DNA from: Lysobacteraceae bacterium
GTDB lineage: Bacteria > Pseudomonadota > Gammaproteobacteria > Xanthomonadales > Rhodanobacteraceae
Reading direction: 5' to 3'
DNA: 52,622 bases
NCBI GenBank assembly: GCA_028866435.1
Contig: JAGWIC010000010.1
Span: forward strand, 1-52,622
Part shown: positions 4,219 to 31,293 of the stretch, in pieces
Layout of the letters: every line of letters starts with the position of its first letter
How positions within the stretch are numbered: the first letter of the stretch is position 1
Position numbers and translations under genes: made by a program
The notes under the pieces: generated by a model
Told to the model about the DNA's origin: nothing
Databases searched by the model: none
Seen by the model: only the letters and a program-made list of their open reading frames with translations

Positions 4219-4269
4219 CGCCTTGCCCGCGCCCGCCGCCTGCACGCCCGCCCCACCCGATCCGTCCGG

Positions 4270-15640: not shown

Positions 15641-17011
15641 TCAGAAGCCGTAGCGCTTCACCTTGTACCAGAGCGCCCGTTCACTGAGCTCCAGCAGGCG
15701 CGCGGCGGCGGCCTTGTTGTTGTCGCTGCGCTGCAGGGCGGCGCCGATCAGCTGGCGCTCCAGCGACTCGACATGGGTCTTCAGCGACAGCGTACCGGTG
15801 CTGTCCAAGGCCGGTTCCGGCCGGGCCTGCGTCGCTGCGGCCGGGTCGGTCACGGGCGCTATCTCGGCCGGCAGGTGCTCAGGCAGGATCTCCTCGCCGC
15901 GGCACAGCACCACGGCGCGCTCCATCAGGTTTTCCAGTTCGCGCACGTTGCCTGGCCACGAATAAGCTTCGAGCCGCTGCAAGGCCGATGGCGTCAGGTG
16001 CGGCGCGGGCTTGCCGAGTTCAGCCGCGTATTTGGCCAGAAAGTGCTCGACCAGCAGGCCGATGTCTTCCCGGCGATCGCGCAGGGGCGGCACGTCGATG
16101 CGCACCACATTGAGTCGAAAGAAAAGATCCTGTCGCAACCGCCCGGCCTCCACGGCCTGCCCCGGATCCACATTGGTCGCCGCCACGATGCGCAGGTCAA
16201 CCGCCATGGTCACATTGGCGCCAAGCCGCTCGATCGTTCCCTCCTGCAGTACCCGCAGCAACTTTGACTGCAGCGGCAACGGCATCTCGGTGATTTCATC
16301 GAGGAAAATGGTGCCGCCACTGGCCAGTTCGCATTTGCCCACGCGGCCGCGGGAAGCGCCGGTGAAGGCGCCCTTCTCGTGTCCGAACAACTCGCTTTCG
16401 AGCAGATCGCCCGGAATCGCGGCGCAGTTGATGGGCACGAACAGCCCGCTGCGCCCGGACGCATCGTGAACCGCCCGCGCCACCAGCTCCTTGCCGGTAC
16501 CCGTTGCCCCAACGATGAAGACGTTGCTGCGCGCCGGAGCCACCTGTTGCACCAGCTTGTACAGCGCCTGCATCTTTTTTCCCGTTCCGACGAATTCACC
16601 CCAGCCTTTGGACAGCTCCTCGCGCAGGAAGCGGTTCTCGCGCTCGACCATGCTGACCGCAAGTGTCCGGGTGACCGCCAGTTCGATGGTTTCAATCTCG
16701 AAGGGCCTGATGATGTAGTCCGACGCACCAAGCTTCATCGCTTCCACCGCGCTCTCGATCGTGCCGAATGCCGTAAGCACGATGACCGGCACAGGCTCGC
16801 CACGCGCACGCAAGTCGCGCAGCAGTTGCATACCATCCTTGCGGGGCATTCTCAGGTCGGTCAACACGAGGTCGAAGTGGCTGGCTTCAACCGCCGCCAG
16901 CGCCTCGACCCCGTCACCAGCCTGGACCACTTCATGACCCATGCTGGTAAGCGCAAATTCCAGGACCTTGCGCATGTTCGGCTCGTTGTCGACAACCAGC
17001 ATCCGTTTCAT
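15641..17011 (-). CDS. sigma-54-dependent response regulator (NtrC family)
   Basis: A 456-residue transcription activator from ATG 17011. The receiver domain has phospho-acceptor D52 (LVLTDLRMPRKDG), but the usual lysine is an arginine, R102, in DYIIRPF. The AAA+ domain has Walker A GATGTGKE (168-175), the sigma-54 contact loop GAFTGA (214-219) and Walker B TIFLDE (234-239). The C-terminus is a Fis-type helix-turn-helix (NNKAAAARLLELSERALWYKVKRYGF at the very end). It lies 7 bases after the kinase gene. The only near-consensus sigma-54 promoter I find drives the polysaccharide operon immediately upstream of this pair, which is its likely target (inference). Confidence 0.95.
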   Translation of the reverse strand: MKRMLVVDNEPNMRKVLEFALTSMGHEVVQAGDGVEALAAVEASHFDLVLTDLRMPRKDGMQLLRDLRARGEPVPVIVLTAFGTIESAVEAMKLGASDYIIRPFEIETIELAVTRTLAVSMVERENRFLREELSKGWGEFVGTGKKMQALYKLVQQVAPARSNVFIVGATGTGKELVARAVHDASGRSGLFVPINCAAIPGDLLESELFGHEKGAFTGASRGRVGKCELASGGTIFLDEITEMPLPLQSKLLRVLQEGTIERLGANVTMAVDLRIVAATNVDPGQAVEAGRLRQDLFFRLNVVRIDVPPLRDRREDIGLLVEHFLAKYAAELGKPAPHLTPSALQRLEAYSWPGNVRELENLMERAVVLCRGEEILPEHLPAEIAPVTDPAAATQARPEPALDSTGTLSLKTHVESLERQLIGAALQRSDNNKAAAARLLELSERALWYKVKRYGF

Positions 17012-17018
17012 GCTCACA

Positions 17019-18782
17019 TCACCTGTCGAAATTAGTGTCAAAGCGGACATTGAAGGCGGCGCCGGCCCAGGGGCTGTCCGTCACTTCAATGTCGCCACCG
17101 TGCGCGTGCACGATCTGCTGAACAACGGTGAGCCCAAGCCCGATGCCGCCTTGGCGGCGGGTGAAAAAGGGGTCGAAAATGTGCTCGCGAATCGGGACGG
17201 GAACCCCCGGGCCGTCATCGGCCACACTCAGCCACAGCGCGCCGGGCTCGAGCCAGGTACTGACGGCGATCTTGCCACCCCGCTGAACCATCTCCAGCGC
17301 ATTCAGCACGAGGTTCAGCAACACCTGCATCATTTGGTCGCGATCACAATTGAACATCACCGCCTGGGCGTCCAAATCCCGCTCGATAGTCACCCCAGCG
17401 GTCGCCGCTCGCGACGCGACCAGGTTGAGCACGCTGTCGATGATCGAATGCAGATCGTGAGGGCGGAAATCCGGCGGCTTGGGCCGCGCGCACTCGAGCA
17501 ACATGGTCACCAGCCTGTTCAGCCGCTCGGTTTCAGTCAGGATGAAACCGATCAGCTCCCGTTCCTTCTCCCCATGCGACGGCTGCCGCATGAGCAATTG
17601 TGCCGAACTGCGGACAATGCTCAAGGGCGTGCGTATTTCATGGGCCATGACGGCGGCCATCTCTCCCACCACCGCAAGCTTGCCGGCGCGCACGAGGTGT
17701 TCGCGCGAACGGGCGAGTGCCTCGATCATCGCCACATAGGCACCGAACAGCTCCGCCACCTCGGTCATGGTCGTGACCGGCACATCTGGCAGCGCCTCGT
17801 TGCCCCGGCGAAATCTTCGCGTGAATTCAGTCAGATTGACGATCGGCTGGGCGATCTTTCCGGCGAGGCGCGACGCGATCCAGACACCCAGCATCAGGGT
17901 CGACAACAGCAGCAACAACATTCCCCAGAGCAGGTTCCAGACCGGCAGAAACGCCACGCTGGTCGGCTCGACCATGAGGAAATGCCAACCCAGCCGATTG
18001 AACTGCGCATCCCCCGCCGAAGCGGCAGCCCCTACCAGCAGCGGACCGTAGCCAAACGCGCTGCCGTCATGAACATATGACGTGGTTCCGGTCGCCGGCA
18101 CGCGCCACTGTTGCAGCCGCAGATGGGGTGGGAGGCGATCCCGGAGCGGGCTGGATGCGCCAAGCACGCCGCCATCGGCGCCCAGCAGCAGCAGGCTGCG
18201 CGGCCCGCCCCGCACCGCGTTGTCGAGCAGATCCTCGATCGCGCCCCACTTCACGAGAACAAACAGATTGCCGATGACGCCATGCCCAAACGCGTCAGGA
18301 ATCGTCGTCCGCAAAGCGACCATCCCGCCCTCGGCCTGCTTCATCCGCGCGATCGAGATGTCATTCAATTTCGTGCCGGACAAGCTCTTCCAGTGGTCTA
18401 TCGGCAGCATCGCGGTACCGATCAGCGCTGGATCGCTGGCGGCGATGATCCGCCCGTTCCGGTCTGCGCAGAGCAGCGCCGCATAGGTGTTTTGCTGCCC
18501 TGCCCGCAAGGCGGACAATGTGTTGGATATGCGCTTGTCAACATCGCCGACCCGGATATCCTGCATGACCTGGAGCATGCGCCAGACCCGCATGTCCTCT
18601 GCCTGGGTAAACAGGAAGGTGTCTACCCGCTCCTTGACGACACTCGCGCTGAACTCGAGATTCTGGGCGATCTCCGCCTGCATCGCCCTTCGAAACGCGA
18701 AGGAGGACAACGCGGCCGTCACCAGGATCGACCCCAGGATCATCCCCGAGAAGGCCCACAACAGGGCGGAGCGCGTGCTCAC
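17019..18782 (-). CDS. membrane sensor histidine kinase, NtrB/AtoS-like
   Basis: About 587 residues from GTG 18782. A first membrane segment (about 8-30) and a second one (about 280-305) bracket a periplasmic Cache-like sensor region. A HAMP domain follows (SRLAGKIAQPIVNLTEFTRRF). The kinase core has the phospho-acceptor histidine in VMAHEIRTPLSIVRS, the N box LNLVLNALEMV, the G1 box VADDGPGVP and the G2 box GGIGLGLTVV. A TTG two codons earlier is also in frame, but GGGGGA is better spaced to the GTG. It is the partner of the sigma-54 regulator directly downstream. The signal is unknown. The GTG overlaps the stop of a possible 23-codon leader frame. Confidence 0.92.
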   Translation of the reverse strand: MSTRSALLWAFSGMILGSILVTAALSSFAFRRAMQAEIAQNLEFSASVVKERVDTFLFTQAEDMRVWRMLQVMQDIRVGDVDKRISNTLSALRAGQQNTYAALLCADRNGRIIAASDPALIGTAMLPIDHWKSLSGTKLNDISIARMKQAEGGMVALRTTIPDAFGHGVIGNLFVLVKWGAIEDLLDNAVRGGPRSLLLLGADGGVLGASSPLRDRLPPHLRLQQWRVPATGTTSYVHDGSAFGYGPLLVGAAASAGDAQFNRLGWHFLMVEPTSVAFLPVWNLLWGMLLLLLSTLMLGVWIASRLAGKIAQPIVNLTEFTRRFRRGNEALPDVPVTTMTEVAELFGAYVAMIEALARSREHLVRAGKLAVVGEMAAVMAHEIRTPLSIVRSSAQLLMRQPSHGEKERELIGFILTETERLNRLVTMLLECARPKPPDFRPHDLHSIIDSVLNLVASRAATAGVTIERDLDAQAVMFNCDRDQMMQVLLNLVLNALEMVQRGGKIAVSTWLEPGALWLSVADDGPGVPVPIREHIFDPFFTRRQGGIGLGLTVVQQIVHAHGGDIEVTDSPWAGAAFNVRFDTNFDR

Positions 18783-18850
18783 CGGCAAAGTCCCCCGCCA
18801 GGGTGGGGCCGGGCAGTGGACACCATCGGGCCAAAACCATCGAAGCCCAT
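18779..18850 (-). CDS. possible 23-residue leader peptide overlapping the kinase start
   Basis: ATG 18850 is preceded by an excellent ribosome binding site (GGGGAGG) and opens a 23-codon frame, MGFDGFGPMVSTARPHPGGG plus three residues. Its stop TGA overlaps the kinase GTG start as GTGA, in another frame. This is the pattern of a translationally coupled leader. No homology can be claimed, and chance is possible in such GC-rich DNA. Confidence 0.4.
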   Translation of the reverse strand: MGFDGFGPMVSTARPHPGGGLCR

Positions 18851-19100: not shown

Positions 19101-20480
19101 TCAGGCATCCGCAAAGGCGAAAACCGGCCTGCTTCCGGCATGGATCGCTGCATCCGGAGCACGCGGCTTGTCAGTGGGCCGACCGATCGAATGATAGGCA
19201 AGCCCCGCCCTCGCCATTGCCTGGGTGTCGAAAATGTTGCGCAGGTCCACGACCACGGTTCCACGCATGGTTTGCCGCAGCCATTGCGGAGCCAGCGCGC
19301 GAAATGCGTCCCACTCGGTAAGAACCACCAGCGCGTCGGCGTCCTCGACGGCCTCGTGAACATCACGGCTGTAATGCACGCTGCCGGGCAGCAATTTCCG
19401 CGCCTGCGGCATGCCAACCGGATCGAAGGCGCGAACCTGTGCGCCCTCGGCGACCAGGCGATGCACGATGTCAATCGCCGGCGCCTCGCGCATGTCGTCA
19501 GTACCGGGCTTGAAGGTCAGGCCGAGCACGGATATTCGCTTGCCGCGCACCGATCCCCCGCAGCGTGCAATGATTCGCCCCGCCATGCCGGCCTTGCGTG
19601 CCTCGTTCACGCCGACGACCGTCTCGACCAGCCGCAGTGGCGCTCCTGCTTCCTGGGCGATCCGCATCAGGGCCTGGGTGTCCTTGGGGAAACACGAACC
19701 GCCGTAGCCTGGGCCTGGGGTCAGGAATCGCGACCCGATCCGCTGGTCCAGGCCTATGCCATGGGCAACGTCGAGTACGTTCGCACCGACTTTTTCGCAC
19801 AGGTCGGCAATTTCGTTGATGAAGCTGATCTTCATCGCCAGGAACGCATTGGCGGAATATTTGATGAGTTCGGCGCTTTCAATGCCAGTGAACAGCAACG
19901 CCGCTTCGTCCAGCGCCAATGGACCGTAGATTCTTCGCAGCACCTCGCGGGCCTGATGGGTTTGCGCCCCTATCACCACGCGGTCGGGTCGCATGAAATC
20001 CTCGATGGCACTGCCTTCGCGCAGAAACTCCGGGTTGGATGCGACGTCGATGCGGATGTCGGGCCGCAACTCGGCCATCCGCGCAGCCAGCTTGCGCCCG
20101 GTACCGACCGGCACGGTCGACTTGGTGACCAGCACGGTCGACTGCTTCAATGCCGCGGCAATCTGCTCGGCCGCGCCGAATACATAGGTGAGATCGGCAT
20201 GTCCGTCGCCACGACGGGAAGGCGTGCCCACGGCGAGAAACACGGCATCGGCACCATTCAGCTCTGCCGCAAGATGGTTGTTGAAACGCAGCCGCCCCGC
20301 CTGGCTGTTCCTGGCCACGACAGCGTCCAGGCCGGGTTCGTAAATCGGCATGCGGCCCTCGCAAAGCGCGGTGAAGCGCTGCGCATCGGTCTCGATCACG
20401 CAGACGCTATGGCCGATATCGGCCAGACAGGCACCGGAAACGAGGCCGACATAGCCACCACCAATCATTGCTATGCGCAT
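19101..20480 (-). CDS. ugd: UDP-glucose 6-dehydrogenase
   Basis: A 459-residue enzyme that oxidises UDP-glucose to UDP-glucuronate with two NAD+. The NAD-binding motif is IGGGYVGLVSGACLADIGH (residues 6-24). The catalytic cysteine is C263 in GPGYGGSCFPKDTQAL. LTFKPGTDDMREAPA (about 328-342) is the UDP-binding segment. The start ATG 20480 overlaps the end of the phosphatase gene by 10 bases. As the last gene of the seven-gene polysaccharide operon it probably supplies glucuronic acid to the polymer (inference). Confidence 0.96.
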   Translation of the reverse strand: MRIAMIGGGYVGLVSGACLADIGHSVCVIETDAQRFTALCEGRMPIYEPGLDAVVARNSQAGRLRFNNHLAAELNGADAVFLAVGTPSRRGDGHADLTYVFGAAEQIAAALKQSTVLVTKSTVPVGTGRKLAARMAELRPDIRIDVASNPEFLREGSAIEDFMRPDRVVIGAQTHQAREVLRRIYGPLALDEAALLFTGIESAELIKYSANAFLAMKISFINEIADLCEKVGANVLDVAHGIGLDQRIGSRFLTPGPGYGGSCFPKDTQALMRIAQEAGAPLRLVETVVGVNEARKAGMAGRIIARCGGSVRGKRISVLGLTFKPGTDDMREAPAIDIVHRLVAEGAQVRAFDPVGMPQARKLLPGSVHYSRDVHEAVEDADALVVLTEWDAFRALAPQWLRQTMRGTVVVDLRNIFDTQAMARAGLAYHSIGRPTDKPRAPDAAIHAGSRPVFAFADA

Positions 20481-21100
20481 GGGTTTTTCTCCTGGATTTT
20501 TGCAGACAATCTGAATTTCCCCTGGCTGCAGCCCAGCATCAGGTGGTGCACCGAGGCGGTCGGCACGGGTATTTGCCGGAACAGGGACAGCGGTTGCTGC
20601 GCCGCCTGCAGCAGCGCGACACGAATCGGCCCGAGATGGCTGACGATCAATACGCCACCCGCGATGGGCTGATGCCACAGCGAATCCGAAAAAAACTCGT
20701 TCAGACGCTGACGCAGCTCGGCCAGGCTTTCGCCTGCGGGTGCAGCGGCGGCATCCGGGGCGCGCTTCCACCGCCGCAGTTGATCGGGCCAATGCAGGCG
20801 GATTTCGGCCTGGGTCATGCCTTCCCACTGCCCATACGCGATCTCGGCCAGACGCGGGTCGACCCGCGGGATACCAAGGCCCAGCGATTCGGCGACGATA
20901 GCGGCCGTCTCGCTGGCGCGGCGCAGAGGGCTTGTGAACACCGACACCACGCCCTGACCTTGCAAGCGCCGACCGAGCTGGCGAGCCTGCGCCCTGCCCT
21001 CCAACGCCAGCGGCAGATCGCTGCGCCCCTGATAGCGCCCGCCGCGGCTCCATTCGGTATGGCCATGCCGCAGCAGCAACAGTGGTATCCGCGTATTCAT
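20471..21100 (-). CDS. histidine phosphatase family protein (phosphoglycerate mutase fold)
   Basis: A 209-residue histidine phosphatase. LLLLRHGHTEWSRGGRYQG (8-26) holds the RHG motif with the phospho-accepting histidine. The acid/base glutamate is probably in RLAEIAYGQWEGMT, and VSHLGPIRV carries the second catalytic histidine. The family covers CobC-like phosphatases, cofactor-dependent mutases and sugar phosphatases; the sequence does not separate these. Its place between the outer-membrane barrel and UDP-glucose dehydrogenase in a polysaccharide operon makes a sugar-phosphate or lipid-phosphate substrate plausible, but this is a guess. Confidence 0.88.
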   Translation of the reverse strand: MNTRIPLLLLRHGHTEWSRGGRYQGRSDLPLALEGRAQARQLGRRLQGQGVVSVFTSPLRRASETAAIVAESLGLGIPRVDPRLAEIAYGQWEGMTQAEIRLHWPDQLRRWKRAPDAAAAPAGESLAELRQRLNEFFSDSLWHQPIAGGVLIVSHLGPIRVALLQAAQQPLSLFRQIPVPTASVHHLMLGCSQGKFRLSAKIQEKNPCA

Positions 21101-21102
21101 GC

Positions 21103-21957
21103 TCAGTAGTGCACAGACACGCCAAGCACAATGCGCTTGCCGGCATGGATACCCTGGCCGGCGACGGAGTCCTCGTAGGTGAGGAACGGTCGCCAGTGCC
21201 GGAATTGGCCTCGCGGGTGGTATTGCAGGCCCACACCAAGACGCAACAGGTTGTAGATCTCTCCAGGGTTCCTGATTGCCGCCTGCTGGCGGTGAATGGT
21301 GCGCACATAGAACAGGGAACCACCCAGGCTGAAGCGCGGCGTGACACGGTACCCAAGGTTGGCCGAGGTGCGTAGCTGGATGGCGCCGCCAGCCACGAAG
21401 ATGCGCGCACCGCCCAGCAAGGTTGCAAACAGAGGTCCCCGCCTGATGCCCACCTGGTAGTCCGGCTCGATAGCCGCCTTGCCCGTCCCGAGTGCGGGCA
21501 CGCGTGTGGTCGAGCCGGTCGGCAGCACGACATTCAGGGCGATCGAATCCGCGAATGACGCCGTTTGCCGCAGGCCGTAATTCAATCCGACTTCCTGGTC
21601 CTCCAGGCCTGAACTCCGGTTGGTGATGGTGTGGCCGGCGTGCTGGCGGGTTTTCTGCAACGCTCCGCCGCGCAGGTCGTACTGGATCGACAGCCTGCCG
21701 CCGATGCCCTGTACGCCTGTAATGCGAAGCTGCGTCTCCTGTTGCCGGGACGATGGGTAGGTGCTCGATCCGAATGTTGTGCTGGAAAAGGCGTCGTTGG
21801 CGCTGAAGTAGCGCAGCATGGGCTTGACCACGCCGTGCCCCTTGGCCGGTACCCATGGCGAGGCCTGGGCCAGCACGGGGCAGACTGACGACAGCAGTAC
21901 GCCCGCGCAGATGAGCAGACGCGTGTTGCAGGGAGCCTTGTTTTCCATCGCGTTCAT
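21103..21957 (-). CDS. outer-membrane beta-barrel protein of the polysaccharide operon
   Basis: A 284-residue protein with a signal peptide (MNAMENKAPCNTRLLICAGV then LLSSVCPVLAQA). The rest shows alternating polar/hydrophobic strands (LSIQYDLRGG, IALNVVLPTG, FSLGGSLFYVRT) and ends in an aromatic residue (VLGVSVHY), as outer-membrane barrels do. It resembles transporter-like hypothetical outer-membrane proteins, but I cannot name a specific family. The ATG overlaps the ABC transporter stop (ATGA). With no Wza-type export protein nearby, it may be the outer-membrane exit for the polymer (speculative). Confidence 0.72.
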   Translation of the reverse strand: MNAMENKAPCNTRLLICAGVLLSSVCPVLAQASPWVPAKGHGVVKPMLRYFSANDAFSSTTFGSSTYPSSRQQETQLRITGVQGIGGRLSIQYDLRGGALQKTRQHAGHTITNRSSGLEDQEVGLNYGLRQTASFADSIALNVVLPTGSTTRVPALGTGKAAIEPDYQVGIRRGPLFATLLGGARIFVAGGAIQLRTSANLGYRVTPRFSLGGSLFYVRTIHRQQAAIRNPGEIYNLLRLGVGLQYHPRGQFRHWRPFLTYEDSVAGQGIHAGKRIVLGVSVHY

Positions 21958-23771
21958 GGGGCGACGATCCTTAGTTTTGGTGCGGTTGCCTCATCGCGCA
22001 TGGCCTGCCACAGGCTGGCGTACAGGCCACCGGCGGCAAGCAGGTCCGCATGGATGCCCCGTTGCACGATCTGGCCGCGCTCGAGTACCAGGATGAGATC
22101 GGCATTCATTACCGTCGACAGCCGGTGCGCTATCACCAGTGCCGCGCGACGCGAGGCGAGACGTGACAGCGCCAGCATCAATTCGCGCTCGGTACGCGCA
22201 TCCAGGCTGCTGCTGGGTTCGTCGAGAATCACCACCGGTGCGTCGCAAAGCATCGCCCGCGCGATGGCGATGCACTGCCGCTGCCCGCCGGACAGGCTCA
22301 GGCCGCGCTCGCTGACCATCGCGTCATAGCCGCCGGGCAACTGTTCAATCAGGTGGTCGACACCCACCTCGCGCGCGGCGCGAACCGCGTCTTCGCGCTG
22401 CGCACCGGCCCGTCCGTAGGCGATGTTTTCCCAAATGGATGCCTGGAACAACGCAGGCTCCTGCAGCACCATCGCCACCTGCGCCCGCAGATAGCTCAAC
22501 GGCAGGCTGCGCACATCGCGACCATCCAGCAGCACAGCCCCTCCGGTGGGGTCATAAAAGCGCGGGACCAGGCTGGCGATGGTGCTTTTCCCCGAACCGG
22601 TCGGCCCAACCAGCGCGACGGTCTTGCCGGCCTCCAGCGCGAAACTGATGTCCCGCAAAATGACTTCGCCGGGGCGATAGCCGAATCCGACGGAGGCGAA
22701 CTCCAGCCTCTGTGCGCGTGACGAGGGCGCGACCGATGCGGGTGAATCCACCACCGTGGAAACCTCCGCGCGGTATTCGCCAATGCGCTCCAGCGCCACG
22801 CCGGTTCGACCGATGACCGCGCCGGCCTTCGCCAGCTGGCGGGCGGGCGTGGCGATACCGCGAAGATAGGCCAGGAAAACCAGCAAGTCACCCGGCGTCA
22901 ATACCCCGAGGATCACCCGCGAGGCGCCGTACCAGACGATGGCTCCGGTGGCCACGGCGATAACCAGGTTCATCGTCGGCCCGTAGCGCGCCTGCACCGT
23001 GTTGGCCTGGATGCTTGCCGCGAGGCTCTTCCCGGCATGCTCGCCGAAGCGGCCATCCTCGTGCGCTTCGCGGGAAAACGCCTGCACGACTTGCACGCTG
23101 GCGAGGATTTCCTGCGTAAAGCCCCACAGCGTCCCCTCCTGGTTTCGCACCTGGCGTACCGCCTGTTTCAGACGGCGGGAGTAGAAGCGGGCGATGTAGA
23201 ACAGCAGTGGCGCGCTGGACAGCGCGAGCAAGGCGTAGCGCCAGTCGATAAGCAGCATCACCACGGCCATCCCGACGATGGTCAGCGCGTGCGGCAACAG
23301 GTCGATGCCCAGGCTGGCGACGAAGTCCTGCAGCTGCTTCACGTCGCCACTGAGGCGCGACATCACTTCACCGCCACGATGGCGGCGGTGAAATTCGAGT
23401 GACAGGCGCTGGAGGTGCGCGAACAGGTCGGAGCGGATCGCGAACACCACCCGCTGACCAGCGTCGAGGAAAACCCGATTCCCCAGGTAGACCAACAGCG
23501 CATCCAACGCGCCCAAACCGAGCATGATCAGCGCCAGCACGTTCAGCAACGGCATGCCGTGCCGCATCAGATCAGGCAGGGCCCGATGCAGCCATGTCGG
23601 CAGCGGGCGGTCGAAGATCACGTTGTCGAGGATGTACTTCAGCGGCCATGGCAGCAGCACCAGCACCAGGGCCCGCAGGCTCATCAGCAAGGCGCCAGCC
23701 GACAGCGCCAGCCACTCCTTCCTGAGGTAGTCCAGCAGCCACGCTGAAGGATGTTCGGTTACCGGGCTCAC
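21954..23771 (-). CDS. ABC exporter, fused membrane and ATPase domains (MsbA-like)
   Basis: About 605 residues from GTG 23771, which overlaps the preceding glycosyltransferase stop as GTGA. Six hydrophobic segments fill the first half. The ATPase half has Walker A GPTGSGKST (389-397), a Q-loop (VLQEPALF), the signature LSGGQ (493-497), Walker B VVILDEPSSS and the H-loop IAHRLST. The half-transporter layout is that of MsbA and lipid or oligosaccharide exporters, unlike the split Wzm/Wzt systems. Among glycosyltransferases it probably exports a lipid-linked glycan or oligosaccharide (inference). Confidence 0.93.
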   Translation of the reverse strand: MSPVTEHPSAWLLDYLRKEWLALSAGALLMSLRALVLVLLPWPLKYILDNVIFDRPLPTWLHRALPDLMRHGMPLLNVLALIMLGLGALDALLVYLGNRVFLDAGQRVVFAIRSDLFAHLQRLSLEFHRRHRGGEVMSRLSGDVKQLQDFVASLGIDLLPHALTIVGMAVVMLLIDWRYALLALSSAPLLFYIARFYSRRLKQAVRQVRNQEGTLWGFTQEILASVQVVQAFSREAHEDGRFGEHAGKSLAASIQANTVQARYGPTMNLVIAVATGAIVWYGASRVILGVLTPGDLLVFLAYLRGIATPARQLAKAGAVIGRTGVALERIGEYRAEVSTVVDSPASVAPSSRAQRLEFASVGFGYRPGEVILRDISFALEAGKTVALVGPTGSGKSTIASLVPRFYDPTGGAVLLDGRDVRSLPLSYLRAQVAMVLQEPALFQASIWENIAYGRAGAQREDAVRAAREVGVDHLIEQLPGGYDAMVSERGLSLSGGQRQCIAIARAMLCDAPVVILDEPSSSLDARTERELMLALSRLASRRAALVIAHRLSTVMNADLILVLERGQIVQRGIHADLLAAGGLYASLWQAMRDEATAPKLRIVAP

Positions 23772-25021
23772 GATGCCACCGCGCGGTCCAGCGCTGGCGT
23801 GGGTGCCAGCGAAAGCGCCTGTTCGACCACATGCCACCAACTGTGACGGGCCGCTTCACGCTCGGCCGCCTGTCCCATCAAGCGGCGCTGGTCCGGCAGA
23901 TCGATCAGGTCCAGGAGTGCCTTCGCGCAGCCGACTGCATCGCCGGGCGCAAACAGGCTGCCCGTTTTCCGGTCATCAATCAGCTCGACGATCTGGCCAA
24001 TCCGCGGCGCCACCACGGGCCGCCCCGCTGCCATCGACTCGATGATTTTCAGTGGCGAAAAATAGAAGTCCGCGTGCGGCAAGTAGGGGGCAATGCTGAT
24101 GTCGATTGCATCCAGCCACGCGGGAATTTCGGCGTGCGGCACCCGCCCCGGAAGCAACACGACCTGATCCAGCCCCCAGTCGGACACGCGCTGGCGAATC
24201 GTCTGCCATTCCGGCCCGTCGCCAACCGCCACCATGCGCACCTGCGGGCGAAGTTCGTGCAAGGCCCTGAATACTTCCAGCAGGAACATCATGCCGTGCC
24301 AGGGTTTGAAGCTGCCGATGAACCCCAGCAGCGGCTCGTCGCCGAGCGCGAGTTTCTCGCGCACGGCGGCGCCGCCTTCATGTTTGCCGAAGCGGGCCAG
24401 GTTGACCCCGTTGGGCAGGACGTGAACCGTCCGATCGCTGCCCAGGACGCCGGCGACGTGGGCGGCAACCGCATCGGAAACGGCGACGATCGCGTCGGCC
24501 CCGCGATAGGAGTCCTTCTCGGCCATCCGCGCCTCGCTCTCCAGCTTCAAGCCGCGAAACCGTCGCTGCTCATCGACCAGCGGCGCATTCACCTCAAGCA
24601 GCCGCGGCACGCCGAATTGCCTGGCAACACGTATGCCCTCGCGATGGAACAGGGCATGCCGCTCATAGACCAGGTCGGGCCGGAAGCCCAGGCTGGACAA
24701 TTGCGGCCACAGCCGCGCGGGCAGCATGCGGTCATAGGCCATGCGGCTCACCTCGCGACGCAGGGTCAAGTCGGACAATGCGGACGCTGGCATGCCAAGC
24801 GCCGTGCACTCCGCCTTCAGTTCCGTTTCGCCGGCATTGTATTCAAGGCAAACGATGCGCCCGACCGGCGCGGGATTGCCACTGCCCAGGGTGGCGCAGG
24901 CCAGCACCACCTCATGACCCAGTTCCGCCGCCGCGGTGACAAACTCGCGCACATGCACGGAGGCCCCTTTGTCGCCGAGGACGGGAATGCCACGGTCGAG
25001 ATTCAGGTAGAGGATTTTCAT
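23768..25021 (-). CDS. glycosyltransferase family 4
   Basis: A 417-residue GT4 enzyme from ATG 25021. The N-terminal Rossmann half begins MKILYLNLDRGIPVLGDKGA with SVHVREF. The C-terminal half has HVLPNGVNLARF, LGFIGSFKPWHG, VAVGDGPEW and the donor-binding FSPLKIIESMAAGRPVVAP, with the EX7E-type glutamates partly kept. The start overlaps the stop of the next glycosyltransferase upstream (ATGA), and its own stop overlaps the ABC exporter start. It builds part of the repeat unit of a surface polysaccharide; donor and linkage are unknown. Confidence 0.93.
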   Translation of the reverse strand: MKILYLNLDRGIPVLGDKGASVHVREFVTAAAELGHEVVLACATLGSGNPAPVGRIVCLEYNAGETELKAECTALGMPASALSDLTLRREVSRMAYDRMLPARLWPQLSSLGFRPDLVYERHALFHREGIRVARQFGVPRLLEVNAPLVDEQRRFRGLKLESEARMAEKDSYRGADAIVAVSDAVAAHVAGVLGSDRTVHVLPNGVNLARFGKHEGGAAVREKLALGDEPLLGFIGSFKPWHGMMFLLEVFRALHELRPQVRMVAVGDGPEWQTIRQRVSDWGLDQVVLLPGRVPHAEIPAWLDAIDISIAPYLPHADFYFSPLKIIESMAAGRPVVAPRIGQIVELIDDRKTGSLFAPGDAVGCAKALLDLIDLPDQRRLMGQAAEREAARHSWWHVVEQALSLAPTPALDRAVAS

Positions 25022-26334
25022 GATCCTGCCTCCGCGGGACTGGCCTTGCCATCGACGACGTCGGAGCGTTCCGGTTGAATACCCCCGCAATCCGGGCAGT
25101 CGATCAACGCATGCAGCTGACGCGTCGTGGTCCACAGGTCGAAGTCCCGCACCAGGCGTTGACGTGCCGCCCGGGCGAGGCTTGCCGCCTGCTGCGGATC
25201 AACCAGCAGCCGTTCGAGTGCGTCCGCAAAGGATGCAGGATCGTTTGACCGGGCCAGCAATCCGGTCTGTCCATGGATGACCAACTCCGGCACCCCGGAT
25301 ACATCGGTGGAGACCACGGGTACGCCGGTCGCCATCGCTTCGACGATCACATTCGGGATGCCGTCGCGATCGCCGTCGTCGGTGATGCGGGGCGCCAACG
25401 CGAACACGTCTGCATGACGGTAGAGCGCGACGAGCTCCGCGTGCGTCATGGCGCCTTCAAGCGTCACCACCCCGGTCAGCCTGAATTCGTCGATCTGCGC
25501 TGCAAGGGCACTGCGCAGCGGGCCTTCGCCGACGATCATGCAACGGAAAGCCAGGCCTTTCCGATGCAGCATCGCGCAGGCGGCAATCAGGTCGTCATGG
25601 CCCTTCTTTGCAACCAGGCGACCCACCGAAAGCACGAGCTTGGCGGGATTCGACGTGCGCGCCGGCTGCTCGTCGCGCGGGTTGAACTGGGACAGGTCGA
25701 TACCGTGATAGACCAGATGGACCTTGTCGGCGTCAGCAACCAGCAGGTCCCGCAAATAGCGGGCGTTGTAGTCGGTGCAGGTGGCGACAAAGGTGGCGGC
25801 GCGCGCGCGCTCGCGAAGAAGGCGTGGCGGTGTCAGGTACAGATCTTTGGCATGGGTGGTGAAGCTGTACGGGATGCCGCTCATCAGGTTCGCAAAGCGC
25901 GCCGAGGCCGCAGGCGCGTTGGCGAAATGGGCGTGGATATGCCGAATGCCGGAACGTCGGCATGTGCTCGCGATGAACCCGCCGCGCCCAAACTGCTTCC
26001 ATACCGACAACGGGCGGGGCGAAAGGGAAGACCACACGATGGCCCGCAGCACGGCACCCGCGTAACGGAGCGGCGATGAGGCCAACATGTGGCCATGGGC
26101 CCGGGCCAGGCCAGCCCACTTGCCGAAGCCAGCGGCGGCCGGCGAATGGATCGGTGCCTGCACCTGCCCCACCATCGGATGATGCGGTGGCGGCTCCGGC
26201 GGCAACAGCGAGAAGATATGGATATCCGCACCCAATCGCTCCATGGCGCGAATTTCATTGAGGATGAAGGTCTCCGTCAGGCGCGGATAGCGCTTCATCA
26301 CGTAGGCAACGGGGCCACTCGCCTTCGCGCTCAT
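25018..26334 (-). CDS. glycosyltransferase family 4, colanic-acid WcaL-like
   Basis: A 438-residue GT4 enzyme. The N-terminus VAYVMKRYPRLTETFILNEI is typical of WcaL/AmsK-like enzymes, and HIHAHFANAPA follows. The donor domain has VYHGIDLSQFNP, LSVGRLVAKKGHDDLI, IVGEGPL and the sequence DGIPNVIVEAMATGVPVVST with the conserved EX7E region. Start and stop both overlap the neighbouring genes as ATGA. A role in assembling the same exopolysaccharide as its neighbours is inferred from the operon. Confidence 0.93.
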   Translation of the reverse strand: MSAKASGPVAYVMKRYPRLTETFILNEIRAMERLGADIHIFSLLPPEPPPHHPMVGQVQAPIHSPAAAGFGKWAGLARAHGHMLASSPLRYAGAVLRAIVWSSLSPRPLSVWKQFGRGGFIASTCRRSGIRHIHAHFANAPAASARFANLMSGIPYSFTTHAKDLYLTPPRLLRERARAATFVATCTDYNARYLRDLLVADADKVHLVYHGIDLSQFNPRDEQPARTSNPAKLVLSVGRLVAKKGHDDLIAACAMLHRKGLAFRCMIVGEGPLRSALAAQIDEFRLTGVVTLEGAMTHAELVALYRHADVFALAPRITDDGDRDGIPNVIVEAMATGVPVVSTDVSGVPELVIHGQTGLLARSNDPASFADALERLLVDPQQAASLARAARQRLVRDFDLWTTTRQLHALIDCPDCGGIQPERSDVVDGKASPAEAGS

Positions 26335-27689
26335 GCCATGTGCTCCATCAAGGCCATCCTCGGCATCGAACTGTCCAGCAGATACTGGGTGACACGCCCG
26401 GCGCCATTGAGGTCGATCGACACTGCCGACGAATCGGACGAGGGTGCGGCGTCAAGCACCTCCGGGATCAGCATCGAAAGCCGCTGCACCAGATCGGCGT
26501 CGGGCTCCACGCTCCACACCGCGCCCAGCCGCGCGAGCAGGCTCGCGCGCATGCGCTGCTCCGCTCGCGGCGCCGCCCGTGGAACAAGGATGGCGCGCTT
26601 GCGCATGGCAAGTATTTCGGCACTGGTGTTATAGCCCGCCATCGCCACGACCACGTCGGCGGCACGCAGGCTGGGGACCAGATCCGTGGTGTAATCGACC
26701 CATTCGACGTCCGGCCGGTGCGCGGCCCGCTGGTGCAAGGCGGCGCTTTCCTCGCCGGACATCAAGGGCCCGGCAACCACCACCGAATGCACCATGCCTG
26801 GCGGAAGCCGCTCGAGCGCCCGCAGGTAGGCATCCATCAGGAAAAACCCATCGCCGCCGCCGCCGGCCGTGACCAGTACCACCGGCTTGCCCTGCGATCT
26901 GTCGGGGTTCCAGCACAGCTGTTCCAGCGCGGCCGTCGCAGCGCCGTCGTGGGTCGCCTTCGCGGCCACCACATGGCCGCAATAGCGGACGCGGGCAGCG
27001 AGTGATGCCGACATGCCGTAGCCTTCGGCCACGTCAAACAGCTCCCTGCTGCCATACACGAAGATGTCGTCATAGGCCTGTTCGAGCAGCGAATAAATCT
27101 GCTGCTCGCGCCAGGTTTTTTGTACCGTCGCCGGACTGTCCAGAATGTCGCGCAGGCCGACGATCGTCCGCGTCCCGGGCAGCTCGCGTCGAATCAGCGC
27201 CAGCGTGGAAAGCAACTCCCCGTCCATGCCGGCCGGCGCGTGATCCACCAGGAACACGTCCGGGCGCTGACGCAGCACGGTCTTCAGAATCAGTGCTTCG
27301 CGGTAACCCTTGACCAGGCTGAACAGCTGGGCAGAGTCGCGTGCGGCGTACTGCTCCGCCCCGGTCTTGACTACCGGTGGCAAGGGCTGGACTTCAAGAC
27401 CGCGAGGAAGTTTCCATTGGTTGATGACAGGTGATCCGGTCAACAGGCAAACCGAAAACTGTTGCTTGCAATCGAGCATGCTCGCGGCGATGGCCAGGTT
27501 TCGACGCAAGTGGCCAAGCCCGAAGGTGTCGTGGGAGTACAGAACCACCTTGATGGTACCCGCTGACTGCGCCCCGGCACTCTCCTCGCCAGCAGCACAA
27601 GTGCGTTCACCCAAATGGACAGGAAGCGGACCGGCATTCCGCCGATCAACGCGTCGGACGGCTTGGTGGACAAGCGATTCAACAGACAT
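26331..27689 (-). CDS. predicted glycosyltransferase, COG4671/MurG-like fold, first gene of the operon
   Basis: A 452-residue protein from ATG 27689, which has AGGAG at the right distance. After a roughly 45-residue N-terminal extension it reads VVLYSHDTFGLGHLRRNLAIA, the hallmark of the COG4671 group of GT-B fold enzymes. VLVTAGGGGDGFFLMDAYLRAL and VVVAMAGYNTSAEILAMRKRAILVPR match the nucleotide-sugar side of MurG-like enzymes. It is the first gene after the sigma-54 promoter and is joined to the next by an ATGA overlap. Donor and acceptor are unknown. Confidence 0.85.
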   Translation of the reverse strand: MSVESLVHQAVRRVDRRNAGPLPVHLGERTCAAGEESAGAQSAGTIKVVLYSHDTFGLGHLRRNLAIAASMLDCKQQFSVCLLTGSPVINQWKLPRGLEVQPLPPVVKTGAEQYAARDSAQLFSLVKGYREALILKTVLRQRPDVFLVDHAPAGMDGELLSTLALIRRELPGTRTIVGLRDILDSPATVQKTWREQQIYSLLEQAYDDIFVYGSRELFDVAEGYGMSASLAARVRYCGHVVAAKATHDGAATAALEQLCWNPDRSQGKPVVLVTAGGGGDGFFLMDAYLRALERLPPGMVHSVVVAGPLMSGEESAALHQRAAHRPDVEWVDYTTDLVPSLRAADVVVAMAGYNTSAEILAMRKRAILVPRAAPRAEQRMRASLLARLGAVWSVEPDADLVQRLSMLIPEVLDAAPSSDSSAVSIDLNGAGRVTQYLLDSSMPRMALMEHMA

Positions 27690-27726
27690 CTGACGCTCCT
27701 GCAGGGAACCTGGGTTACCTGCACGG

Positions 27727-27742
27727 AGCAATATTCAAGCCA
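27727..27742 (-). promoter_or_regulatory. sigma-54 (-24/-12) promoter of the polysaccharide operon
   Basis: On the minus strand the sequence reads TGGCTTGAATATTGCT. It matches the RpoN consensus TGGCACG-N4-TTGCW at all defined positions but two, with the exact spacing between the GG and GC pairs. Transcription would begin near 27716, about 27 bases before the first start codon at 27689. A sigma-54 activator is encoded at the far end of the cluster. Confidence 0.8.
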
Positions 27743-27828
27743 CATAGATAACTACATGATAGTTAAGCGTATTTCACTACTGTTACAGCTGTGCGAGGCA
27801 TACCATTCCTGCAGCATGCACTGGTTGT

Positions 27829-27844
27829 CTGCAATGGTTTGCAG
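27829..27844. promoter_or_regulatory. inverted repeat, candidate enhancer site for the sigma-54 activator
   Basis: CTGCAA-N4-TTGCAG is a perfect dyad about 120 bases upstream of the predicted sigma-54 transcription start. That is the usual distance for an NtrC-type activator binding site. Only one clear copy is seen. Confidence 0.5.
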
Positions 27845-27883
27845 GGTCCGGGCCAGAGCAGGGGGGCAGGCAAGCGCCATGAC

Positions 27884-28396
27884 TCAATGCCTGCCGTGCG
27901 GCGGGCATTGCTCCGGTGCACTCTCGGCCAGCTTCCCGATCACGGTCACGACAAGAACGACCTTGACCTTCGCATTGGCGTAACAAGGCCTGACATAGCC
28001 GACCGCGGCGGGAGTCTTGGCCACGAAATCCACGACGGCCGCCTGCGAACCAAGGACGAATGGCGGACTGACTCCCTGGAAATACTGCCGGTTCCAGTAG
28101 CCTTGCAATTGCGGCTCGTCCAGGTGAATGACGGCAACGGTGAAATCATGCCGCAACCTGCTGTCTGGCGGCAGATTCACCGGTACGTAGACGTGGTTGG
28201 CCGAATCCAGGAAGACTTTCTTCAAAAAGACGCTGCGCAGCAGGTTGCGGTCGATCGCCGTCGTTGGCGCCTGTCGCGAGACGATGACGGCAACCTGCCG
28301 GCCGTTCGCGTTTTTCGACGCCGCGTTCAATGCCATGCTGCCGCCCGCCATCAGGGCGATAGCAAGCAGCAGACCGCGAAGCCAACGGCATCCCAT
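27884..28396 (-). CDS. PstS-like periplasmic protein (PBP_like_2 type)
   Basis: A 170-residue protein with a signal peptide (WLRGLLLAIALMAGGSMALNA). The body follows the short phosphate-binding-protein-like pattern: VAVIVSRQAPTTAIDRNLLRSVFL, then YVPVNLPPDSRLRHDF, LQGYWNRQYFQG and TPAAVGYVRP. Such short proteins resemble the phosphate ABC-transporter binding subunit but usually occur without transporter genes. It starts 3 bases after the porin gene on the same strand and lies just upstream of the polysaccharide operon. What it binds is not evident. Confidence 0.75.
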   Translation of the reverse strand: MGCRWLRGLLLAIALMAGGSMALNAASKNANGRQVAVIVSRQAPTTAIDRNLLRSVFLKKVFLDSANHVYVPVNLPPDSRLRHDFTVAVIHLDEPQLQGYWNRQYFQGVSPPFVLGSQAAVVDFVAKTPAAVGYVRPCYANAKVKVVLVVTVIGKLAESAPEQCPPHGRH

Positions 28397-28399
28397 GGC

Positions 28400-29497
28400 C
28401 TAGAAAATCGCGCCTACGGAGAAGAACCAGCCACTCGGGTCGAGTGCCTCGTTGCGAGAGCCGTCGAGTCGCTCAAGCTTCAGGAACAGCCCTCGCACGG
28501 GACGATAGTTGAGTCCTATGTTGCGGATGTAAACGGCTCCCGGCTGTATCGAGCTTCTGTAGCGCTCATAGCGGCCCACCAGGTAAAGGCTCCGCGGCAG
28601 CGGCACCACCGCCTGCAGAAAACCGCCGACTTCATCGGGCAGAGCCGGATTGTCGGCCTTGCGCTGCAGCGCCTCGCCACTGAACTCCACGCGGCGGCCA
28701 GTCCACGCGAAATCGATGCCGATCAGGCGATACTGCTGCCGCGGATCCCTCAATGCATAGCGGACCGCCGATGCTCCGACGCTCAGCCGGTCGTCGATCA
28801 TGTGATAGAGGAATTGACCACCCAGGGCGTGCGCGAAATCGTTTCTCAGCGGGCTGCTCGCGCCGTAAGCGCCATAGGCCAGATCATGGCTTCGGGCGAA
28901 GCCGATCGCCTGGCTGTCGTCGGCAAACAGCCAGTAGTCGAGGTCATGGTTCTGCAGGTTTACCGTGCCATACAACATGGCGCCGGTGCTGTGCCGCGCG
29001 AACGCCGCGGTCGTCGTCAGCGGGCGGGAGACCGACCACACCAGCGGATCGGCATGAATCAGGTTCCACTGGCCCACCGGCGTCAGGAACTTGCCGACCC
29101 GCAGCGTTATTCCGTTGCTTACCCGATACTCCGCGTAAAAGCGCTCCAGGTCGACATTGGCATATCGAGTGGTGAGCTGGCGCCGGGTTGCGGTCACGGC
29201 GTCGCCCAGTTCGACTTCGCCAAACATTTTCCAGCGCGCCCCCATGTCCTTGGACAGGAACAGGCTCAGGTCTTCGATGACGAGTGCATTGCGCTGGTCG
29301 TCCAGGCCATGAAACTGCAGGTCGGCGTAACCTCCCACCCGCAAAGCCTGCTGCGGAAAGTAAAGGCCTTGCCCAAGGTGGTAGGGCTGCGCAGGACTCA
29401 TCGAACCGGAGGCATCGGCAAGCAGGGGCCCACTCCAGGCAAGCACGAATCCAAGCAGGATGATGCGACGCCACGGCCCTCGTGCCAGTTTGCTCAT
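28400..29497 (-). CDS. porin-like outer-membrane protein
   Basis: A 365-residue protein with a signal peptide ending near LLADA. The body is rich in alternating strands: VGGYADLQFHG, FGEVELGD, LERFYAEYRVSNGITLRVGKFLTP, and it ends in SVGAIF with a terminal phenylalanine, a typical barrel signal. The YxxxxVSNGITLRVGKFLTPVG segment resembles phosphate-selective or carbohydrate porins. It forms a two-gene unit with the PstS-like protein downstream. Their role relative to the polysaccharide operon is unknown. Confidence 0.75.
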   Translation of the reverse strand: MSKLARGPWRRIILLGFVLAWSGPLLADASGSMSPAQPYHLGQGLYFPQQALRVGGYADLQFHGLDDQRNALVIEDLSLFLSKDMGARWKMFGEVELGDAVTATRRQLTTRYANVDLERFYAEYRVSNGITLRVGKFLTPVGQWNLIHADPLVWSVSRPLTTTAAFARHSTGAMLYGTVNLQNHDLDYWLFADDSQAIGFARSHDLAYGAYGASSPLRNDFAHALGGQFLYHMIDDRLSVGASAVRYALRDPRQQYRLIGIDFAWTGRRVEFSGEALQRKADNPALPDEVGGFLQAVVPLPRSLYLVGRYERYRSSIQPGAVYIRNIGLNYRPVRGLFLKLERLDGSRNEALDPSGWFFSVGAIF

Positions 29498-29957
29498 GAT
29501 GACCTGCGCCTTGGAATGGGGCTGTCCGAGTTCGCCGAAAACTGATCACCCCTGTCCGAAGATGCCAGGCCCGGGCAGGGGTTGGGAATCCAGCTCCGTA
29601 TTGCCGGTTTCGAGTGTAGCGGCAGTGCCCCCGGCGATGTCACCCGCATCGCCGCACCGCTATCGATCCAGCGGTTCCGCGGGTCCGATCCGGCGATGAT
29701 CCCGCCGCTGCCGCAGATCAACCGGCAGCCGCCGATGCAACTGGCCGGGCGCGGCGTTCACCCCGCGCGCGGTGCATGCCATGCCGGCCGAGGGTATGAT
29801 GCGCATGGACGAGCCGGCGTGGGTGACCACGCGCTGAAAAAGGTGGTTCCCGCGATCAGCCGGCATGCGGGCGGGCTGCCGTGAATCATGCACATCGCTC
29901 GAACCGTCCCCGTTCGACCACCGGCGGGGTGCTGAATCATCCTGTCGGAAACGCCTC
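29498..29957. other. 460-base intergenic stretch between divergent genes
   Basis: I find no convincing gene here on either strand. There is a short dyad TCGAAC-N7-GTTCGA at 29899-29917 upstream of the family 9 glycosyltransferase, and a TATGAT hexamer near 29797-29802 on the plus strand that could be a -10 box. Promoters for both the porin and the glycosyltransferase are expected in it. No sigma-54 motif was found. Confidence 0.4.
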
Positions 29958-31088
29958 TTGAACGTCGCTCATGCCAACCCCGCCCAGCCATCGCTGCCGA
30001 AGAAAGGCATCTACCGCATCCTGGTCTGCCGGCCGAATCACCGGCTAGGCAACATGCTGCTGCTGACGCCGCTGATCACCGAACTGGAACACACGTTCAA
30101 GGGCGCGGAAATCGACATCCTGGCCGAAGGCGCGATCGCCGCGGAGGTTTTCTGCACCTCGTCCAGCGTCAAGAACATCTACTGCCTGCCGAAGCGCGGC
30201 TTCAAGCATCCATGGGCGTTCCTGGCGCTGCTGCTGCGCATCCGCAAGACCCGCTACGACCTGATCGTCGACCCCTGCCTCGGCTCGAACTTCAGTCGCG
30301 CGATGACCCGGTTCCTCGATGGACGCTGCAAGCTCGGCTTTGCCGAGCGGCTCGACGGATCGGGGCTGACCCATGCCGTCCCGCCCGCGGTGGCCATGCC
30401 GCACATGGCCAAGCGGGCGATCAACCTGGTGCGCTGGGTCACCGGCCGCGACGACGACGGGTTCCCGCCGATGGACATTCGCCTGACCGCGCTCGAGCAC
30501 GAACAGGGGCAACGGCTGCTGGCCGGAGTCCTGCCGCAGGCCGACCGCCCGACGGCGCGCCCGCTGGTGGGCATCTTTGCCAATGCCACCGGCGCCAAGC
30601 GCTATCCACTGGCCTGGTGGCGCGAGTTCATCGCCACCCTCACGCAGCGGCTGCCACACGCCAGCATCGTCGAGTTCGTGCCCATGCATGGCCAGTCCAT
30701 GCTGGACAGCGCCTGGCCAGCCTACTATTCGTCCGACATCCGGCGCATGGGCGCGGTGATGGCGGCAGCGGACCTGCTGGTCAGTGCCGATTGCGGCGTC
30801 ATGCACCTGGCGGTGGCCTCCGGCGTGCCCACGATGGGCCTGTTCTGCGTCACCGATCCGGCCGTCTACGAGCCGTATGGCCATGACAGCGGCGCCCTGC
30901 ACACCGGCGCGCTGTCGGCGGCGGAGACGGCCGACAAGGTGGTCGACGCCTGCGCCGGGATACTGGCCCGCGCCTCCGCCGCGCCCGTCGCCGCTTCCGG
31001 GCAGGGCGCGGCGCCGCACCCGGTCACCGGGCCTGCACCAGCCCGCGACACCCCGGCCGTGGCCGCGCTGCCCCAGCAACCCGCCTGA
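29958..31088 (+). CDS. glycosyltransferase family 9 (heptosyltransferase-like)
   Basis: About 376 residues. GIYRILVCRPNHRLGNMLLLTPLI is the family 9 opening, and the donor half has LVGIFANATGAKRYPLAWWREF and LVSADCGVMHLAVASGVPTMGLF. Such enzymes add heptose or related sugars to lipopolysaccharide core. The start is uncertain: no in-frame ATG lies close to the conserved region, so TTG 29958 with GGAA upstream is proposed; ATG 29865 would add 31 unlikely residues. The C-terminal tail of about 45 residues is Ala/Pro-rich and low in complexity. It is followed by an ArnT-like gene on the same strand. Confidence 0.85.
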   Translation: MNVAHANPAQPSLPKKGIYRILVCRPNHRLGNMLLLTPLITELEHTFKGAEIDILAEGAIAAEVFCTSSSVKNIYCLPKRGFKHPWAFLALLLRIRKTRYDLIVDPCLGSNFSRAMTRFLDGRCKLGFAERLDGSGLTHAVPPAVAMPHMAKRAINLVRWVTGRDDDGFPPMDIRLTALEHEQGQRLLAGVLPQADRPTARPLVGIFANATGAKRYPLAWWREFIATLTQRLPHASIVEFVPMHGQSMLDSAWPAYYSSDIRRMGAVMAAADLLVSADCGVMHLAVASGVPTMGLFCVTDPAVYEPYGHDSGALHTGALSAAETADKVVDACAGILARASAAPVAASGQGAAPHPVTGPAPARDTPAVAALPQQPA

Positions 31089-31293
31089 CGACCGGCATCC
31101 GGGCCATAACCTGCCCATCCATCGAAGTCAGGCCCGGTCGCCAGCCATTCCAGCCGTCGGTCTTTCCCTGAAATACACTTGCACCGGCGCGGCGAGTGAT
31201 TCCGGCCACGGCTCCATGAGCATCGACCCCTGACCCGTGACGGGTACCCGTTGCGCAGCGCCTCCAGCCTTCCACGCGTCGCCAGGAACCAGC

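Follow-up and report, generated by a model that had tools for sequence, protein, structure and literature searches.

Genes and regulatory elements at the locus

The window, by which is meant the whole stretch of 52,622 nucleotides that was analysed, is contig C101 of a fragmented 3.08 Mb assembly (89.4% complete). On its minus strand, a putative operon led by a gene for a glycosyltransferase with a GT28 C-terminal domain is followed by the genes of a histidine kinase (HK) and a sigma-54 activator (EBP) and preceded by two genes for a half-length PstS-like protein (half-PstS) and a predicted beta-barrel. The protein encoded by the GT28 gene has an 87% identical counterpart in 'Oleiagrimonas sp. 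isolate GH2' (family Rhodanobacteraceae), on one of its contigs. The features, in the direction of transcription, are as follows.

28400..29497, minus strand: porin-like beta-barrel (predicted), a core member conserved beside the half-PstS gene
27884..28396, minus strand: half-length PstS-like protein (structure model matches), a core member directly upstream of the operator
27829..27844, minus strand: perfect dyad CTGCAA-N4-TTGCAG, CTGCAAACCATTGCAG; right half within the operator core, left half lineage-specific
27810..27834, minus strand: predicted EBP operator core KTGCAGACANNNNYTGCRNNCTGCA, with one mismatch here (alignment of loci, matrix; binding predicted)
27727..27742, minus strand: predicted sigma-54 -24/-12 promoter TGGCTTGAATATTGCT (consensus match and conservation)
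26331..27689, minus strand: first operon gene, glycosyltransferase with GT28 C-terminal domain (PF04101)
25018..26334, minus strand: GT4-type glycosyltransferase, GT4a (profile matches)
23768..25135, minus strand: GT4-type glycosyltransferase, GT4b (profile matches; start codon uncertain)
21954..23840, minus strand: MsbA-like ABC exporter with fused membrane and ATPase domains (profile matches)
21103..21957, minus strand: protein with a signal-peptide-like start, perhaps an outer-membrane beta-barrel (judged from sequence; conserved in the operon)
20471..21109, minus strand: histidine-phosphatase superfamily protein (PF00300)
19101..20543, minus strand: UDP-glucose/GDP-mannose-type dehydrogenase, UGD (profile matches)
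17019..18788, minus strand: histidine kinase with double-CACHE-like sensor (HisKA, HATPase_c; model of residues 1-340)
15641..17050, minus strand: NtrC-type response regulator and sigma-54 activator, the predicted operator binder (domains)

The sequence-only reading had placed a sigma-54 activator and its kinase at the other end of the cluster, and the domains of both proteins bear this out. The EBP contains a receiver domain, an AAA+ sigma-54 interaction domain, and a Fis-type HTH, with the GAFTGA motif present, and the modelled sensor of the kinase (mean pLDDT 76) finds its best PDB matches among double-CACHE extracellular sensors, including DctB. The genome encodes RpoN in two copies (contigs C29 and C31; L041 and L042), either of which could read the sigma-54 promoter. 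The gap between the UGD and HK genes is 312 bp in the window and about 200-320 bp (measured from match ends) in the other GT28-type loci, and because this gap recurs, HK and EBP may be transcribed from a separate promoter; transcripts from the sigma-54 promoter might also run on into these two genes, which would amount to positive feedback. At one related locus (L162 of G196, 2671-4468), the linked kinase gene appears to lie in two reading frames. Just past the EBP gene of the window, at 12388-15528, GtrA-like, PgfS/ArnC-like GT2, and GtrII-like genes resemble an O-antigen glucosylation triple; no such triple was found at related loci of the GT28 type.

The protein at 21103..21957 gave no family match in the profile search. 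The half-PstS protein has 170 residues compared with 321 for E. coli PstS, and none of its 29 members in alignment A1, which in the window spans 27887-28396, has a Pfam match at E 0.05. Its structure model (mean pLDDT 78) matches phosphate-binding proteins over ~125 alignment columns, with a best E of 1.4e-7 and a TM-score of 0.51 on the query. The neighbouring barrel has only a weak Pfam match (BBP2, E 0.024). In nearly all loci seen, the half-PstS gene stands beside the porin-like barrel gene and the HK-EBP pair.

Predicted promoter and operator, and their conservation

The predicted promoter TGGCTTGAATATTGCT (27742-27727, minus strand) had been described as an RpoN consensus match with exact spacing, and the -24 GG and -12 GC are indeed present at the correct distance; the transcription start, predicted ~27 bases upstream of the first-gene ATG (27689, with AGGAG ahead of it), was likewise upheld by counting on the sequence. 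Taken alone, the -24/-12 match is weak evidence, since the genome contains 116 exact TGGC-N7-TTGCW matches (65 + 51, compared with 24 for a reversed control pattern) and the window, with two of them, is at the genome average density. With up to one mismatch allowed, the window holds 50 -24/-12 matches compared with 29.5 in shuffles, the majority of them intragenic. As the match by itself says little, conservation was examined, and it is conservation across the aligned loci that gives meaning to the promoter and the dyad.

The centre of the dyad CTGCAAACCATTGCAG (27844-27829) does lie ~120 bases upstream of the predicted start, as had been claimed, and the perfect form occurs in a single place in the 89.4% complete assembly (12 places with up to one mismatch, compared with six for the control). 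The proposal that this dyad is the activator site held in part. Its right half falls within the conserved KTGCAGACANNNNYTGCRNNCTGCA (27834-27810), but of 19 loci in which the operator is anchored, only three (the window, L055, and L103) have the exact left half CTGCAA, with GCAA kept at the left-half position in three more GT28-type loci. The perfect dyad overlaps the predicted operator, yet the element conserved in the alignments is KTGCAGACANNNNYTGCRNNCTGCA, of which TTGCAGACA and TGC-N3-CTGCA are parts distinct from the left arm CTGCAA. Mean pairwise identity in 13 non-redundant loci was 0.78 for the operator core and 0.74 for the promoter; the operator left arm had 0.52, the leader 0.34, and two segments of the DNA separating operator from promoter had 0.32 and 0.39. 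This set represents 13 of the 16 loci with 92-94 bp spacing (near copies L061, L062, and L106 taken out), to the exclusion of the loci with 82-83 bp spacing and of those fetched later.

An operator matrix was built from 14 sites, omitting the window, L061, L062, and L106, as well as L057, L060, and L100, which have no exact anchor, and L095, which lacked upstream room. The window site scores 30.7 bits and is among the weaker ones, as 28 of the 33 other sites score 38-56 bits, many of these being in the matrix training set. A matrix made from 12 sites that have other genes downstream gave the window site 24.0 bits and the next best position in the window 4.4 bits, and found nothing above 4 bits in 137 kb (overlaps counted) of other loci from the same genome. 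No further operator above 6 bits was found in the window, not even ahead of the GT9 gene at 29865, which is divergent, and the genome has no second operator within one mismatch and two matches with three mismatches (C47 and C118).

The distance between the two elements was followed by scoring the -24/-12 consensus at offsets of 40-200 from the operator anchor in 34 operator copies (sites above 18 bits, with duplicate L168 removed and close relatives retained). The best match lies 92-94 bp from the anchor in 28/34 copies and 82-83 bp in 5/34, and the remaining copy (G169) has an operator without a promoter; in the window, the -24 element lies 92 bp downstream of the operator 5' end. The corresponding gap from the end of the operator core to TGGC is 67-69 or 57-58 nt. 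The two spacing classes are one helical turn apart, as expected of a protein obliged to face the polymerase, and a conserved upstream site, the predicted activator site, is thus found at face-of-helix spacing in 33/34 copies. Of these 33 promoters, 21 carry TCGC as the -12 box, a deviation from the usual TTGC consensus, and three carry TTGC; the scan took either T or C as the second -12 base, a choice made after the sites had been viewed. All three TTGC boxes precede a GT28 operon, and the box of G134, which is outside the 33, is likewise TTGC.

Across the family, the kinase sensor domain occurs in 32/233 genomes, and the kinase loci of all 32 were retrieved in full or in part. The 25-bp operator (up to one mismatch) occurs in 30/233 genomes, comprising 28 of the 32 with the kinase sensor and 2 of the 201 without it (G079 and G112); a reversed operator control pattern gave one match in the 233 genomes. 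The kinase genomes without a clear operator are G134, G143, G042, and G203 (contig end). A Fisher test of operator against kinase sensor (p 1.3e-29) ignores kinship and physical linkage and overstates independence, because the genomes are related and the elements linked, and the co-occurrence is in part co-inheritance, since operator and regulator lie close together on the DNA. Conservation of the promoter and the activator site in relatives was the refutation test set beforehand for the sequence-only reading, and when it was run both elements were found to be conserved.

In wider sampling, the sensor domain was found in 20/398 genomes of an order-wide sample, where another family gave four matches that are weak (G331, G404, G438, and G441; 26-37% identity), and in 14/368 other genomes of a class-wide sample, from which the ten best-scoring loci were fetched and the weaker G597, G677, G867, and G741 left out. 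HK, EBP, and barrel genes are present at nine of these ten extra-family loci, eight of which also have half-PstS (one contig ends), and the tenth (L195) shows weak matches only. A T_hemolysin gene is present at four of the ten, and an operator above 18 bits at only one.

Gene sets downstream of the shared cassette

Relatives of the first operon gene (E <= 1e-20) occur in 6/233 family genomes, including that of the window. In the five other GT28 genomes, the order is barrel, half-PstS, operator and promoter, GT28, GT4, GT4, and ABC, and the GT28 genomes continue after ABC with the outer-membrane protein, histidine phosphatase, UGD, HK, and EBP (the locus of G145 is spread over two contigs, the contig of G180 ends before half-PstS and barrel, and two such contigs exist in G179). 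All five have a -24/-12 site upstream of the GT28 gene, and the operator is clear in four; G134, which has the same operon and a good -24/-12 site, retains a faint trace of it. GT28-GT4-GT4 sets also exist in another family, where no match to this HK or EBP was found in the 20-kb stretch at any of the five fetched loci, four of which have the ABC gene.

In 24 of the 26 kinase genomes that lack the GT28 operon, the same barrel and half-PstS genes lie divergently to HK-EBP, the exceptions being G042 (barrel without a half-PstS match) and G203 (contig cut). An operator with a -24/-12 site lies 3' of the half-PstS gene in 22 of the 26; the other four are G143 with degenerate traces only, G169 with an operator without promoter, and G042 and G203 with neither. 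The outputs of the 32 kinase genomes are the GT28 operon in 6, a T_hemolysin/AMP-ligase/heme-oxygenase-like/SDR set in 16 (counting G116, which has no T_hemolysin match, and G114, cut after T_hemolysin), a GT9-PMT set in 7 (counting G060, cut after GT9), and other or cut in 3 (G193, G169, and G203). What is new here is that, by comparison of these loci, three different gene sets are preceded by the same kinase, activator, barrel, half-PstS, predicted operator, and predicted promoter.

The T_hemolysin/AMP-ligase/heme-oxygenase-like/SDR set is the commonest output of the promoter (L090, L092, L099, L105, and others). In G169 (L091, position 14224), a well-conserved operator is followed by neither a promoter nor recognised output genes, a state that would fit loss of the output. 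An extra operator-promoter pair precedes the GT9 gene in G178, G184, and G169, and a second pair is located elsewhere in G055 and G047. The window itself contains, at 29865-33015 and divergent from the barrel gene, GT9 and ArnT-like genes related to the GT9-PMT set, and these are not preceded by an operator, unlike the GT9-PMT set in other genomes.

A tree built from 45 EBPs, of which 42 are linked and 3 are paralogues, puts the GT28-linked EBPs in one group (88/93, below the star threshold) and the GT9-linked EBPs in another (100/98), with the T_hemolysin-linked EBPs spread around both; the tree carries a long-branch warning, and the base of the family clade is left unresolved in it. These comparisons suggest that outputs have been exchanged behind a regulatory cassette. 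The T_hemolysin-type output is probably the older, given the pattern of the EBP tree and the presence of T_hemolysin at extra-family loci, and the two glycan-type outputs would be later replacements. A fuller history can be put forward tentatively, at clearly less than even odds, in which HK, EBP, barrel, half-PstS, operator, and promoter are the parts of a portable cassette that originally drove the T_hemolysin set and was re-used once each for GT9-PMT and GT28, and in which barrel and half-PstS act as a sensing arm that delivers or holds the kinase ligand.

Proposed mechanism, alternatives, and known systems

The main reading, to which a probability of about 0.86 is given, is that the promoter depends on sigma-54 (RpoN) and has a remote activator site of its own, that the linked HK-EBP pair acts on it, and that it drives the glycan operon. 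The overall interpretation offered by the sequence-only reading, a sigma-54 promoter with its own two-component switch, is supported by the conservation of operator, promoter, spacing, and linkage. In this mechanism, the double-CACHE histidine kinase would sense a periplasmic ligand and phosphorylate the linked NtrC-type EBP, which would bind the 25-bp operator at 27834-27810, loop the DNA to RNA polymerase-sigma-54 at 27742-27727, and open the promoter by ATP hydrolysis. Transcription of the operon would then yield three glycosyltransferases, the MsbA-like exporter, the predicted outer-membrane protein, the histidine phosphatase, and the UDP-sugar dehydrogenase, which together would make and export a glycan, and HK, EBP, barrel, half-PstS, operator, and promoter would constitute a regulatory cassette that has other genes downstream in relatives. 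We infer operator binding, phosphorylation, RpoN dependence, the ligand, and the product. A ligand-controlled, RpoN-dependent glycan operon is the most likely reading of the locus.

The predicted functions of the operon genes speak for glycan synthesis and export, perhaps of a glycan with uronic acid, and the product is likely a surface polysaccharide. A quite plausible alternative, falling only somewhat short of an even chance, keeps the regulation as proposed and has a glycolipid or oligosaccharide exported instead: the ABC exporter is of the fused, MsbA-like type, and among the operon proteins that were scanned neither a polymerase nor a Wza/Wzc-type protein was recognised, the candidate export partners of a capsule or exopolysaccharide being the MsbA-like exporter and the predicted outer-membrane protein. 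Against it, one GT28-GT4-GT4-ABC set of the other family is accompanied by an Alginate_exp-type protein, a MurJ-family protein, and a sulfotransferase, and such neighbours suggest an exported polymer.

It is unlikely that the promoter, though sigma-54-dependent, is driven by another EBP and that the linked HK-EBP pair serves something else. The genome does encode six other strong EBPs, but the operator tracks the linked kinase (28/32 compared with 2/201 genomes), and a SER-x-LWYK HTH is present in 21/21 linked EBPs compared and differs in the three paralogues recovered from the same genome, a comparison that leaves out L088 and the genome's own EBPs on C17, C29, and C89. Still less probable is a chance occurrence of the -24/-12 match and the dyad, both then being functionless, with sigma-70 transcription of the operon or transcripts that run on into it from barrel and half-PstS. 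The window is not enriched in exact -24/-12 matches over the genome as a whole, but the motifs are conserved while the spacers have diverged, the spacing is fixed, the site is recovered by an independently trained matrix, and no sigma-70-like match was found at 27660-27900, where 0.1 would be expected, which makes this last point a weak one. The least probable view, that the dyad is the terminator hairpin of the upstream barrel and half-PstS genes, was rejected, since the dyad, although it begins ~40 bases past the half-PstS stop codon and could pair 6 by 6, has no T-run and no terminator-like match, and its exact left arm is missing in 16/19 loci in which the right half and the next bases are kept.

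If the main reading is true, a regulator has been identified for the switching on of glycan- and lipid-type clusters in environmental Rhodanobacteraceae. The locus is an unusually clean natural experiment, with one kinase-activator pair, one operator, a spacing that changes by a helical step, and three gene sets, and it allows one to ask how an activator keeps its site while the output changes, and what signal the outputs have in common.

DctD activates dicarboxylate transport, and the DctB/DctD pair has in common with the present system a double-CACHE-type kinase sensor and an NtrC-type EBP. The linked genes differ, as those found here are the barrel, half-PstS, and envelope- or lipid-type outputs. 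The cassette is not named in the matches listed from the open-licence literature (titles and abstract openings).

Sigma-54 control of cell-surface genes is already known as a theme. In the excerpts consulted of a broad survey, sigma-54 promoters and EBPs are associated with exopolysaccharide, LPS, lipid, and envelope genes, and two sigma-54 variants are reported in some Xanthomonadales; neither this operator nor a cassette whose outputs vary is described in the same excerpts (Francke 2011; PMC3162934). According to the available portions of a study of Aquincola tertiaricarbonis, pepA is RpoN1-dependent, has a mapped start with -24/-12 motifs and a predicted upstream enhancer, and is linked to exopolysaccharide-dependent flocs (PMC9850573). 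There, RpoN1 controls a PEP-CTERM gene and, in those portions, seemingly not the glycan biosynthesis genes, unlike the promoter described here, which lies directly before the glycan operon (PMC9850573).

The most extensive likeness is to PrsK/PrsR and the PEP-CTERM upstream element, for which the relevant passages of the original description give an operator-promoter gap averaging 62.8 nt with a range of 32-92 (Haft 2006; PMC1569441). Both systems, as far as those passages go, have a kinase with an NtrC-type EBP, a -24/-12 promoter preceded by a conserved operator at a similar average distance, phylogenetic profiles that match, and exopolysaccharide genes nearby (PMC1569441). The gap is variable in PrsK/PrsR (32-92 nt in the same passages), whereas here it takes two narrow values, 67-69 or 57-58 nt (PMC1569441). 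Membership in the PrsR/PEP-CTERM system was rejected, because the EBP reaches 384.4 bits against a cut-off of 502.6 for the PrsR model (TIGR02915) and no exosortase (PF09721) match was found in the assembly, which is 89.4% complete. The PrsK model is not among the best 25 of the 80 families that match the kinase. PrsK/PrsR is the nearest published system that was met, one that works alike and is not the same.
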